From: Candidatus Iainarchaeum sp.
Lineage (GTDB): Archaea > Iainarchaeota > Iainarchaeia > Iainarchaeales > Iainarchaeaceae
Length of the DNA stretch: 47,028 bases
NCBI GenBank assembly: GCA_016202305.1
Contig: JACQPB010000002.1
Location: forward strand, 1 to 47,028
Direction: 5' to 3'
The position numbers were made by a program, and so were the translations under genes. This document shows positions 26,903-43,124 of this stretch, one piece after another. Position 1 is the stretch's first letter. Each line of letters begins with the position of its first letter. The notes under the pieces are model-generated. The model made no database searches, was not told where the DNA came from, and saw only the letters and a list, made by a program, of their open reading frames with translations.

Positions 26903-26956
26903 CTTTTTTCTTTTCGCCAACGTTTTCTTTTGGGCCGAAACCAAAAGAAAAGGTTG
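26903..26956 (-). repeat. Three-arm repeat copy A (reverse orientation)
   Basis: Read on the minus strand this copy runs: CAACC, a pyrimidine arm CTTTTCTTTTGG, a purine arm CCAAAAGAAAACG, a short TTGG link, and a second purine arm CGAAAAGAAAAAAG. The first two arms pair as a hairpin. It ends one base before tRNA-Glu. It shares its layout with copies B-E in the rRNA operon but is in reverse orientation to the adjacent RNA gene. Confidence 0.7.
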
Positions 26957-34377: not shown

Positions 34378-35866
34378 ATTCCAGCTGATCCTGCTGGCGG
34401 ATACTGCTATCGAAGTTCGATTCAGCCATGCAAGTCTAAGAGGCCAAGTCATGGTGGCCTCTGGCGTACGGCTCAGTAACACGTAGTTAACCTACCCTTA
34501 AGAGGGGCTAATCCCGGGAAACTGGGGCTAATCCCCCATAGGAAAAGGCAACTGGAATGTGCCTTTTCCAAAAAGGAGCACACCATGCAAGTGTTTCCGC
34601 TTTAGGATGGGACTGCGGTGGATTAGGTAGTTGGCGGGGTAAATGCCCACCAAGCCGAAGATCCATACGGGCCTTGAGAGAGGTAGCCCGGAGAAGGGTA
34701 CTGAGATAAGGACCCTAGCCCTACGGGGTGCAGCAGGCGCGAAAATTCTGCAATACACGAAAGTGTGACAGAGGAACTTCGAGTGTCCCCTTTGGGGACT
34801 TTTGCCAACTTTAGAAAGGTTGGCGAATAAGGGCTGGGTAAGATACGTGCCAGCCGCCGCGGTAATACGTACAGCCCGAGTGGTATCCCCTAATATTGGG
34901 CCTAAAGAGTTCGTAGCCGGCTATGTAAGTCCTTGGTGAAATCGGCTTTCTCAAAGAGTCGAATGGCCAGGGATACTGCATGGCTCGAGACCGGGAGACG
35001 TGAAGGGAATTTCCGGAGTAACGGTGAAATGTTGTGATCCCGGAAAGACCACCAGTAGCGAAGGCGCTTCACGAGAACGGCTCTGACGGTGAGGAACGAA
35101 AGCTGGGGGAGCGACCCGGATTAGATACCCGGTTAGTCCCAGCCGTAAACGATGCGGACTAGGTGTTCTAGCGCTCACGTAGCGCGGGAGTGCCGAAGCG
35201 AAGGTCTTAAGTCCGCCGCCTGGGAAGTATACTCGCAAGGGTGAAACTTAATGGAATTGGCGGGGACGCACTACAAGGGGTGGATGCTGCGGTTTAATTG
35301 GACACAACGCCAGAAAACTTACCAGGGGCGACAGCAGTATGATGGTCAGTCTGAAGGGCTTACCTGACACGATGAGAGGTGTTGTATGGTCATCGTCAGC
35401 TCGTACTATGAAGCGTCCTGTCAACTCAGGCAACGGGCGAGACCCACGTCCATAGTTGCTATTTCCCGATTCCGGGGGAGCACTCTATGGAGACTGCGGT
35501 GGTAACACTGAGGAAGGAGTGGGCCACGGTAGATCTGTATGGCCCGAATCTCCTGGGCTACACGCGGCATACAATGGACAAGACAATGAGTCTCGAGCCC
35601 GAAAGGGTAAGGTAATCCCAGAAACTTGTCCTCAGTTCGGATTGAGGGTTGTAACCCACCCTCATGAAGTTGGAATCCCCAGTAATCGGAAGTAACCATC
35701 TTCCGGTGAATTAGTCCCTGCGTCTTGCACACACCGCCCATCAAGCCAGCTGAGTGGGGTTTTGATGAGGCCATTCTCTCAGAGGGTGGTCGATTCAGAA
35801 TTCCGCGAGGGGGGCTAAGTTGTAACAAGGTGTCCGTAGGGGAACCTGCGGACGGATCACCTCCTT
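34378..35866 (+). rRNA. rrs: 16S ribosomal RNA
   Basis: A full-length archaeal small-subunit rRNA of about 1.49 kb. It starts near ATTCCAGCTGATCCTGCTGG, has GTGCCAGCCGCCGCGGTAA (519 region) and ends in GGATCACCTCC, which contains the anti-Shine-Dalgarno sequence. The 915 region is unusual: AAACTTAATGGAATTGGC and GGGGACGCAC differ from the common AAACTTAAAGGAATTGGC, so universal archaeal primers may mismatch. Ends are estimated by comparison with archaeal 16S and may shift by a few bases. A TGCCCGGCA/TGCCGGGCA hairpin follows directly. Confidence 0.96.
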
Positions 35867-35920: not shown

Positions 35921-35974
35921 CCTTTTTTCTTTTCTTGGAAAGAAAAGAAAAAACGTCGACGAAAAAAGAAAAGA
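35921..35974 (+). repeat. Three-arm repeat copy B
   Basis: Pyrimidine arm TTTTTTCTTTTCTT, loop GGA, purine arm AAGAAAAGAAAAAA, a perfect palindromic link CGTCGACG, and a second purine arm AAAAAAGAAAAG that is the mirror image of the first. Just after it TTTTTTTCG can pair with CGAAAAAA of the last arm. It lies between 16S and tRNA-Ala. Confidence 0.75.
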
Positions 35975-35997
35975 ATTTTTTTCGTGCAATAGCCACA

Positions 35998-36050
35998 CAA
36001 CCTTTTTCTTTTCGTTGACACGAAAAGAAAAACGTTGACGAAAAAAAAGT
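35998..36050 (+). repeat. Three-arm repeat copy C
   Basis: CAACC, pyrimidine arm TTTTTCTTTTCG, loop TTGACA, purine arm CGAAAAGAAAAA, link CGTTGACG, and a third arm AAAAAAAAGTG, which is less well conserved than in the other copies. It follows copy B by about 23 bases. Confidence 0.7.
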
Positions 36051-36156: not shown

Positions 36157-36231
36157 GGGCCCTTAGCTCAGCGGCAGAGCGCTCCGTTTGCATCGGAGAG
36201 GCCACGGGTTCAAATCCCGTAGGGTCCACCA
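36157..36231 (+). tRNA. tRNA-Ala (anticodon TGC)
   Basis: Acceptor GGGCCCT pairs with AGGGTCC and holds the G3-U70 pair that identifies alanine tRNA. The anticodon loop TTTGCAT gives TGC; the T arm is ACGGG-TTCAAAT-CCCGT. CCA is encoded at 36229-36231. It sits between 16S and 23S, the usual archaeal position, and repeat copy D starts at the next base. Confidence 0.97.
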
Positions 36232-36288
36232 CAACCTTTTTTCTTTTCTCAGAGAGAAAAGAAAAAACGTTGACGAAAAAAGAAAAGA
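36232..36288 (+). repeat. Three-arm repeat copy D
   Basis: CAACC, pyrimidine arm TTTTTTCTTTTCTC, loop AGA, purine arm GAGAAAAGAAAAAA, link CGTTGACG, second purine arm AAAAAAGAAAAGAG. The second purine arm is the exact mirror of the first. It lies between tRNA-Ala and 23S. Confidence 0.75.
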
Positions 36289-36447
36289 GCAGTGAAAAAG
36301 TTTTACCTGAAGAAAAACCAAAACTACATCTGCATTTTTTGCGGAGTTTACGCTTACATGTTTTCACAGTTGTAAGGAATCGTCCTGAGTTATTTCAGGA
36401 CGAAGGGCTGAGCTGATTCCATTCCCAATGGTTTTGGCATTGAAGTC

Positions 36448-36481
36448 GTGCATTGGCAGACCCATCGGTTTAAGGAGTTCT
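36448..36481 (+). other. 5' arm of 23S processing stem with bulge-helix-bulge
   Basis: GTGCATTGGCA at 36448-36458 pairs with TGCCAATGCAC at 39472-39482. Next come a G-A mismatch, the four-base central helix ACCC (36460-36463) with GGGT (39464-39467), a three-base bulge ATC at 36464-36466, and GGTTTAAGG with CCTTAAACC. Two three-base bulges flank a four-pair helix on opposite strands, the form cut by archaeal EndA. Confidence 0.8.
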
Positions 36482-39463
36482 GTAAGCCGTCTAGTGGATG
36501 ACTAGGCTTGGAAGCTGTTGAAGGGCGTGGCAAGCTGCGATAAGCCAAGGCGAGCCGCATGCAGGTTTTGAACCTTGGATACCTGAACAGCTCCGTAAGG
36601 AGTGGGAACGCCGGGAATCGAAGCATCCTAGTACCGGCAGGAAAAGAAAGCAATAGCGATTCCGTCATTAGGGTCGACCGAACGCGGAAGAGGACAAACC
36701 GAATTCTGCAGCGTGAGTTGCAGAAGATGTGGTGTTAGGGCCTGGTTACAGCCTCCTGTCATGAGTTGAAGTCCCCTGGAACGGGGCGCCATAGAGCGTG
36801 AAAGCCGCGTAAGCGAAATGCCGGGAGCTGATTGCCGGGTACCCAGAGTATGGCGCGTCGGATATCGCGTCAGAACGTGCGGGTCAATTACCCGTAATCC
36901 TAAATACTCTCCAAGTCCGATAGCTCACTAGTACCGTGAGGGAAAGTTGAAAAGCACCCTTAACAGGGGGTGAAAAGCGCCTGAAACTAGACGGCCATAG
37001 GCTGACAGGGCACAGAAGAGGTAAAGTCCTCCGAAGCGAGGCATGGAAACGTGCGGAGCGAGGAAGGATGATTCAGTGTCCTGTTGTTCGTCCTGAAACA
37101 CGAGCGAGGGAGTTTGCGGGTGTGGCGAGGTTAATCCCCTTCGGGGAGAAGCCGCAGCGAAAGCGAGTGCCCGCAACGCGCGAAAGCGCGTGAGGGGCAG
37201 GGTATGAATAGTGCCCAAGTCACACACGCCAGACCTGAAACCGGGTGATCTATTCCTTTGCAGGCTGAAGTCCCCCTTCCGGGGGATGGAGGGCCGATAC
37301 CAGTGTTAGTCCAACTATTTGGGTGACATGGGAATAGGAGTAAAATGCCATTCGAACCCGGTGATAGCAGGTTCCTTCCGAAATAGCTCTTAGGCTAGCC
37401 TTTGCTGAGGCGGGCTGTGGGGTAGAGATACTGATTAGAAAGTACTGGTTGGAAACTTCCAGCTTTCTTGTCAAACTCCCAATCTGCAGCCGCCGTAGAA
37501 GCAAGGAGTAGGGGTGCGTGGGGTAAGCCCCGTATCCTTAAGGGGAACGACCCAACCTTGGGTTAAGGCCCATAAGTGCGGATTAAGTGTAACTTGAAAA
37601 GCGTCCTTTTCCTAAAACAATGTGGAGGTAGGCTTAGAAGCAGCCATCCTTTAAAGAAAGCGTAACAGCTCACACATCTAGGTGAGGGGCCTTGAAAATA
37701 ATCTGGGCTAAAATCCGCCGCCGATACCCAGGAATGTCCACTGTGTGGACAATTTATTAGGAAGGTGCTCGGATGGTGTAGAAGCAGGGCAGCAATGTCC
37801 TGTGGAACCGTTCGAGATATGGATCCTCGTGCTAGTAATAATATAGAGAGGTGAGAATCCTCTCCGTCGAAAGGGCAAGGGTTCCTTAGCGCTAATCATT
37901 AGCTAAGGGTTAGTCGGTCCTAAGGCCAAACGTAGAGCGTATTGGCCGAAAGGGAAACGCGTTCATATTCGCGTACCATTCAGATACGTCTTCGGCAACG
38001 ATAGCCGTGCTCCAGACGCTTTGGGCTAGTGTCCGTCCCGCCGTCGCGGGATTTAAATTGCATAGGTCCGTGGAGAGCCGTAATGGCGAGAAGCGGAGCA
38101 AAGCAATGAACAGGAGAAATCTGGACACGAGGCCTGGAGCCCGTGAAAATGGAGTGCGGAAGGATTCTGAATGCCCGTACCAAGAACTGAGAAAGGTGCC
38201 CCTGGCTGAGAAGGCCAAGACGTCTCAGGGAATAACTCTGTTTAGGGAATTCGGCAACAATAGCCCTGTATCTTCGGTATAAGGGGTGCCTGCAGTGCAG
38301 ACTGCAGGTTGCAATAACAAGGGGGGTCCGACTGTTTATCAAAAACACAGGTGACTGCTAGCCAGCAATGGTGTGCATAGTCGCTGACTCCTGCTCACTG
38401 CCAGTACGTGAAACCCCGTTCCAACGGGACTAAGCGCTGGTGAAGAGCGGGCCTAACTCTGAGGCTCTCATGGTAGCGTAATACCTTGGCGGTTGAATGC
38501 CGTCTTGCACCAACGGAGTAACGAGATCCCCACTGTCCCGAATAGAGGCCTGATGAACTCGCTGCGCGGTGAATATGCCGCGGAATTCCAACGGGAAGAG
38601 AAGACCCCACGGAGGTTTACCACAATCTGATGTTGTGGTATGTTTTCTGATGTCTAGCGTAGATGGGAGCGCCGAAGTAGTTTCGCTAGGAACTATGGAG
38701 CGACAATGTAACACCATCCTTTGGAAAACGTACTGCTAACCCGCAAAGGGGACAGCATTTGACTTGGTGGTTTGGCTGGGGCGGCACGCCCCTGAAAATG
38801 TATCAGGGGCGCCCAAAGGTGTGCTCAGGTGAGTCAGAAATTCACCGTAGAACGCAAAGGCAAAAGCACGCTTGACCATGAACTACACAGCAAGGTTCGT
38901 GGATGCGAAAGCAGGGCTTAGCGAACGTCAGAAGCGCATTAGTGGCCCTCTGGTCTTACAGTGAATTTACCCTGGTGGTAATTGAGTGGTCGCGGGTGAG
39001 AGTTCACATCGACCCCGCGGTTTGCGACCTCGCCGTCGGCTCTTGATATCCTGGCCGTGCATAAGCGGCCAAGGGTGCAGGTGTTAACTGATTAAAATCG
39101 AACGTTAGTTGGGTTAAGAACGGTGCGAGCCAGTTTGGTTACTATCTGTTGGAATTGTTGGGCGTCTGAGGGGAAGGAGCACTGAGTACGAGAGGAACGG
39201 TGCTTCGTGGCCACTGGTACGCCAGTTGTCTGACAAGGCATCGCTGGGTAGCTACGCCATGGCTTATAAGAGCTGAAAGCATCTAAGCTCGAAGAAGCCC
39301 CTGAAAATAGACGCCCATTCCTGAAACTCCGCACGTAAAACTGCGGAGGCTAGGGACGAGGGCTCCGGCAAAAGACCGGATCGATAGGCTCGTGGTGTAA
39401 GCGCCAAGCTAACGCGAGGCGTTAAGCCTACGAGTACTAAAAGCCCGAGAGAACCCTTAAACC
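36467..39463 (+). rRNA. rrl: 23S ribosomal RNA
   Basis: Large-subunit rRNA of about 3.0 kb. The 5' part has GAAGGGCGTGGCAAGCTGCGATAAGCC-type archaeal sequence, and the 3' part contains AGTACGAGAGGAAC of the sarcin-ricin loop (near 39186) and ends after CGAGTACTAAAAGCCCGAGAG. The first helix pairs GGTTTAAGG with CCTTAAACC. I see no inserted intron or intein-like block. Ends are approximate. No 5S gene follows it. Confidence 0.95.
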
Positions 39464-39482: not shown

Positions 39483-39483
39483 G

Positions 39484-39540
39484 AACCTTTTTCTTTCTCT
39501 TGAAAAGAGAAAGAAAAACCTTCACGAAAAAGAAAGAGAA
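39484..39540 (+). repeat. Three-arm repeat copy E (covarying)
   Basis: AACC, pyrimidine arm TTTTTCTTTCTCTT, purine arm AAGAGAAAGAAAAA, link CCTTCACG, second purine arm AAAAAGAAAGAGAA. Compared with B-D all three arms have changed together: CTTTTC became CTTTCTC, GAAAAG became GAGAAAG, and the third arm became the mirror of the new second arm. It is the last element before the operon end. Confidence 0.75.
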
Positions 39541-42797: not shown

Positions 42798-43124
42798 CGG
42801 GTAGCAGGCGACCGGATGTCGGTATCCCATATCAGGGACGCTGAGGAAAGTCCGCCCACACGCAGAACACACGCATCGAGAGATGGCCAGGGGCAACAGA
42901 AACGAGACCATTGTTTGCGAACGGAGTGAACCAAGTGCATTCGAAGAATGCGCTGTCGGCATCGCCGGTCGAAAACGGCGGATGAAACGGGCCCCTGAGT
43001 GTGCAACTCCCACGCGGAGGCTAAGTCGAATTCCGGTGAGGCCATGTCCTGAAAAGGGCAGAAACCCTTGCATTAATGGGTTTTCAAGGCCGGAACAGAA
43101 GGCGGCTTACGTCCTGCTGCCCGA
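42798..43124 (+). ncRNA. rnpB: RNase P RNA, archaeal type
   Basis: The catalytic RNA that matures tRNA 5' ends. The conserved region GAGGAAAGTCCGCCC is at about 42843-42857 and ACAGAAGGCGGCTTA near 43095-43109. The outer P1 helix forms from CGGGTAGCAGG at the start and CCTGCTGCCCG at 43113-43123. The length of about 327 bases is normal for archaea. The termini are estimated from P1. It is followed at once by the minus-strand coiled-coil gene. Confidence 0.93.

Follow-up and report, generated by a model that had tools for sequence, protein, structure and literature searches.

Repeats with the potential to fold into an intrastrand triplex have been known in bacteria for decades, without a function or clear signs that the triplex is of importance in cells. 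Those found in E. coli and other species, termed potential intrastrand triplex (PIT), BoxC, or TMECO elements (Hoyne and Maher; Holder et al. 2015, PMC4666352), carry a pyrimidine arm, a purine arm, and a mirror purine arm on one strand (class II), while the complementary strand has the pyrimidine-motif order; the first loop and the spacer are short, and the copies are dispersed and intergenic. The TMECO elements are G/C-rich with arms of 9 nt, show neither strand bias nor a constant spacing to genes, and no role could be assigned to them (PMC4666352). Judged from their sequences, the archaeal elements described here follow this plan, with differences in composition, arm length, foot pairing, and strictness of placement. 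Their arms are A/T-rich, mostly 11 to 15 nt long, and do not match the BoxC/TMECO consensus CCCTCNCCC-GGGNGAGGG-GGGNGAGGG; the foot pairs with the flank of the neighboring gene, polarity and spacing are fixed, and copies are found in tRNA introns and leaders. No description of such elements in archaea was found in the literature that we searched.

The window, by which we mean the whole analyzed stretch of 47,028 nt, comes from a Diapherotrites (Iainarchaeales) MAG of 1.04 Mb that is 80% complete (G000). It contains an rRNA operon in the order 16S, tRNA-Ala, 23S, with the copies B to E located outside of the mature RNAs (Table 1). None of the Rfam families matched the elements in the window above the gathering score.

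Table 1. Three-arm elements and neighboring RNA genes in the window (Y, pyrimidine arm; R, purine arm)
Feature	Position	Strand	Remarks
Copy E, foot flank GAACC	39483..39487	+	Just outside the 23S precursor stem
Copy E, arm 1 (Y1) TTTTTCTTTCTCTT	39488..39501	+	14 nt; sequence read directly
Copy E, loop GAA	39502..39504	+	Between arms 1 and 2
Copy E, arm 2 (R2) AAGAGAAAGAAAAA	39505..39518	+	Reverse complement of arm 1
Copy E, spacer CCTTCACG	39519..39526	+	Between arms 2 and 3
Copy E, arm 3 (R3) AAAAAGAAAGAGAA	39527..39540	+	Mirror of arm 2
Copy B	35923..35975	+	Downstream of 16S rRNA; three exact arms; orthologue in G002 (L111)
Copy C	36003..36049	+	Hairpin with degenerate third arm AAAAAAAAG; sequence read directly
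Copy D	36237..36289	+	5 nt after tRNA-Ala; three exact arms; G002 (L111) orthologue with the same arms
Further copy, tRNA-Glu 5' leader	26906..26952	-	Opposite orientation; gap of 4 nt; third arm upstream in the tRNA sense
16S rRNA	34378..35865	+	Rfam RF01959
tRNA-Ala(TGC)	36157..36228	+	Context of copies B to E
23S rRNA	36471..39460	+	Rfam RF02540

The initial annotation had singled out copy E, proposing that all of its arms had changed together relative to those of B and D. A three-arm element was indeed located at 39488 to 39540, with exact pairing between arms 1 and 2 and an exact mirror between arms 2 and 3, although the arms were 14 nt long rather than 12 nt. Direct reading also showed that the arm sets of B and D differ from that of E under the same three-arm plan, but to call this a change needs care, as B, D, and E are paralogues. 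The orthologue of copy E in G007, which belongs to another genus, has arms identical to those of E, whereas all three arms are different in the G002 orthologue, so that the change at E may have gone either way. The weaker third arm that had been remarked on in copy C was borne out, with the hairpin kept and the third arm degenerate. In the 16S-23S spacer of G002 (L111), a probable counterpart of copy C was observed, in which a sequence resembling a third arm lay about 58 nt downstream, past inserted hairpins.

A pattern built on the hairpin (arms 1 and 2) was identified 14 times in the 1.04 Mb genome, and the reversed pattern, used as a control, not once, which shows that the elements are not a chance occurrence. 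The three-arm pattern was present in all 8 genomes of the archaeal family and in 55 of 389 relatives, where the reversed control was nearly empty; the named records with the pattern were Diapherotrites (Iainarchaeota) along with some Micrarchaeota and Altiarchaeota. A single match in a contig labelled as a Leptospirales bacterium (L132) may be due to chance or to a binning error. It was also noted that other archaeal families (L078, L079, L145, L200, and order-level relatives) contained a second spacer type of 10 to 13 nt (for example GTGCTTCACCCC and GTGCAGGTTGCCC) with the same three-arm plan.

The element consists of a pyrimidine-purine hairpin of 10 to 16 bp, a foot helix of 3 bp, and a third arm that matches the purine arm base for base, with a loop of mostly 2 to 8 nt and a spacer of 6 to 8 nt. 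By sequence, it is a class II intrastrand triplex element, that is, a Y arm, a complementary R arm and a mirror R arm on one strand with a stem of 6 to 15 nt. The loops of most copies fall within the range of 0 to 10 nt (Hoyne), but a spacer of 8 nt exceeds the ITxF limit of 1 to 6 nt. The foot helix, in which the flank pairs with the spacer, also covaries: flank positions -3 to -5 and spacer positions 3 to 5 formed Watson-Crick pairs in 92%, 94%, and 92% of the copies, as compared to 55%, 42%, and 37% after shuffling. These flank positions are often the last bases of the gene, such as the stop codon or the tRNA discriminator base, so that the folded unit includes the edge of the gene itself. 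Arms 2 and 3 form a homopurine mirror repeat like the mirror-symmetric purine tracts of H-DNA, but the inverted-repeat first arm is an addition that H-DNA does not need, and its presence points to folding of a single strand.

Evidence for a three-strand arrangement came from the comparison of orthologous copies, for which the initial annotation had suggested counting the substitutions that keep both the pairing and the mirror symmetry. Across 17 orthologous pairings, 17 triad positions had switched concertedly in all three arms, from T-A-A to C-G-G or back, while there was no position at which arms 1 and 2 had changed and arm 3 had not followed; 7 further positions had changed otherwise, mostly in a single arm. 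The triad positions are not independent events, since some may be indel pairs and one locus enters more than one comparison. The clearest example is the tRNA-Val leader of G001 and G002, where the first C was shifted by one position in every arm, with the loop GGG and the flank being identical. In the tRNA-Ser(GGA) leader of G000 and G002, the last T of arm 1 was replaced by C, and arms 2 and 3 had changed to match.

Among 110 distinct copies, arm 3 mirrored arm 2 at 98% of the paired positions, as compared to 84% (maximum 87%) when the third arms were shuffled among the copies; this set had been filtered for a decent third arm, and more weight is given to the orthologue counts and to the unfiltered hairpins of G000. 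The search score behind a larger set of 139 copies likewise over-selects good third arms, and the 14 hairpins of G000, chosen on arms 1 and 2 alone, served as the unfiltered check. Here, the mirror arm matched at 10 or more positions (of 11 to 14) in 13 of the 14 hairpins, whereas only 3 to 6 positions matched on the other side of the same hairpins. We consider selection on a three-strand fold, one of two explanations initially offered, to be the best reading of the concerted changes. Two other sources of the symmetry were rejected: Watson-Crick pairing between arms 3 and 1 left mismatches when copy E was checked by eye, and pairing between the left and right elements of one intron does not fit arms that differ from each other, with the difference kept across genera.

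The placement of the copies was strict. Among the 139 distinct copies, 80 touch tRNA genes, with 21 located at the 5' end, 21 at the 3' end, and 38 at intron ends, of which 28 are 5' and 10 are 3' ends. The foot faces the mature tRNA in all 80 copies, and the gap between flanking copies and the tRNA gene is 0 to 9 nt. Of the 59 copies elsewhere, 14 follow a long ORF, starting 2 to 9 nt past its stop codon, and copies were also found after the genes for 23S rRNA, RNase P RNA (G002 and G007), and SRP RNA (G003). A TATA-like motif was located 10 to 83 nt beyond the third arm in 11 of the 21 leader copies, and on the matching side of none of the 21 copies at tRNA 3' ends. The leader copies thus appear to be transcribed. 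The copies B to D lie between the 16S and 23S rRNA genes, where no other promoter was apparent by eye, and they are thus probably read through. The element is not essential at every such site, since only a T-rich stretch is left in its place at the 23S end of G004 and no element was found at the RNase P RNA ends of G000 and G004.

The RNase P RNA gene of the window, at positions 42800 to 43121, is of the archaeal type and lacks a three-arm element at its end, unlike those of G002 and G007. The match in G004 (L236) is 508 nt long, seemingly with inserted palindromic segments. A search of 12 genomes detected RNase P RNA in 9, including G000, G002, G004, and G007, and a missing RNase P was therefore rejected as the reason for the copies in tRNA leaders. 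In Altiarchaeota STB_145 (L145 and L210), three-arm elements were located in the intron and at the 3' end of a gene called by ARAGORN as a putative tRNA-SeC(tca).

Covariation was seen both among the three arms and in the foot helix, and the elements border mature RNAs in a single polarity. We tentatively favor the reading that the fold serves as a boundary element beside mature RNAs within precursor transcripts, at a probability that we place a little short of even. Each copy would then be an intrastrand-triplex element whose foot helix is built from the last bases of the neighboring gene and the spacer, giving a compact clamp beside the sites of cleavage or termination of leaders, trailers, introns, and 3' ends. 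Such a clamp could hold the precursor portion in a fold apart from the mature RNA, or shield the cut ends. The host introns lie near the anticodon as in archaeal tRNA introns of the bulge-helix-bulge type, whose helix might be formed here by the foot flanks; these introns carry the three-arm element as an extra part, and it is also found outside of them.

The predicted RNA structure depends on the sense of transcription. Transcripts in the order Y3-Y1-R2, as expected for tRNA leaders and intron 3' ends, could form a major-groove triple helix of U.A-U and C+.G-C triads. This recalls the U.A-U triple helices (ENE) of PAN and MALAT1, which protect the 3' ends of eukaryotic or viral RNAs. The likeness lies in the Y-Y-R strand order and the triads in the strand leading into the mature RNA, and would hold only for copies transcribed in this sense; in the archaeal elements the purine arm is followed by the start of a gene or an exon, and transcription runs in the other sense for many copies. 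Transcripts in the order Y1-R2-R3, at 3' ends and intron 5' ends, would form a hairpin only, and the third-strand fold would need DNA. The arms are A-rich with isolated Gs, which fits the pyrimidine motif and would suit T.A-T triads and a low number of C+; beyond the first base of arm 1, neighboring Cs were found in 3 of 110 copies.

The third arm is about equally strict in both transcript senses, being exact in 31 of 42 copies where the sense RNA is Y-R-R and in 25 of 29 where it is Y-Y-R. A pyrimidine-motif triplex has been reported in RNA and a purine-motif triplex has been reported not to form there (PMC4666352), so the preservation of the third arm in Y-R-R copies seems to count against a role in RNA and favors one in DNA. 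Thus, the placement argues for RNA and the symmetry across orientations for DNA; the counts of G.U and A.C pairs in the foot helix, meant to separate the two, were too few. A role in DNA, less probable but not far behind, would have a strand exposed during replication or in a transcription bubble fold into the triplex and pause polymerases or insulate highly transcribed genes, the RNA boundaries being where this is tolerated and useful. The fixed polarity and the spacing of 0 to 9 nt to the ends of mature RNAs and introns have no obvious meaning for DNA, and little stability would be expected of A-rich purine-motif triplexes. On the other hand, both strands are foldable, as class II and as pyrimidine-motif class, and bacterial elements of this kind were reported to stop DNA polymerase in vitro (PMC4666352).

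It is improbable that the elements are transcription terminators or 3'-end signals, in which the T-rich first arm would end the transcript and the other arms improve on this. At the 23S end, where the family f1 has the element, a plain T tract is common in the order's other families, the RNase P RNA gene is followed by T7 in G004 and by the element in G002 and G007, and copies start shortly past stop codons. However, the T-rich tracts of archaeal terminators are expected at transcript ends only, and copies inside tRNA introns, in leaders downstream of TATA-like boxes, and between the 16S and 23S rRNA genes occupy sites where termination would be harmful; nor does this model need the mirror arm.

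Non-autonomous mobile elements, MITE-like or IS200/IS605-like, that insert at gene edges with the structure serving as a transposase substrate are a still less probable explanation. The ends of IS200/IS605 elements are folded single strands with foot-like pairing, which the archaeal elements recall, and the family is dispersed, has many arm variants, and varies in presence between relatives at some sites, such as the RNase P RNA end. Tandem degenerate purine blocks, a spacer-like GCTTGGCC, and small hairpins were also noted beyond the third arm of some 3' copies (L109 in G002, L062 in G006, and L085 in G001), and these purine blocks look as if they were decayed older third arms or whole elements. 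Inverted pairs, as in MITEs, occur in some introns (10 right ends and 28 left ends), and copies elsewhere are single. Against this reading, the copies at single gene ends lack a second terminus, many sites are shared between genera, in part with a conserved loop and flank and covarying arms, and the spacer fits each local flank.

That the concerted change in E reflects copying rather than selection is very improbable: identical arm sets do recur at many loci, so that replacement of the whole element by another copy is possible for E itself, but it is unlikely at the tRNA-Val leader of G001 and G002, where loop and flank were unchanged though all three arms had moved their C, and the gene conversion between arms that had initially been suggested is rejected, since a mirror differs from direct and inverted repeats alike and no templated copying yields arm 3 from arm 2.

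Returning to the folded boundary element in precursor transcripts, the base-by-base coevolution of three strands at orthologous sites provides natural evidence for a selected three-strand fold, and its strict placement at the boundaries of RNAs opens its role to tests with simple mutants. It is conceivable, although we hold this with less confidence, that the elements represent a widespread RNA-processing element of DPANN archaea and Altiarchaeota, in which a selected triple helix would mark the boundaries of tRNA leaders, trailers and introns, rRNA, RNase P RNA, SRP RNA, and mRNA 3' ends. If true, prokaryotes would have a triplex element whose role in the cell is evident. The elements are also of interest for the maturation of stable RNAs in DPANN archaea.
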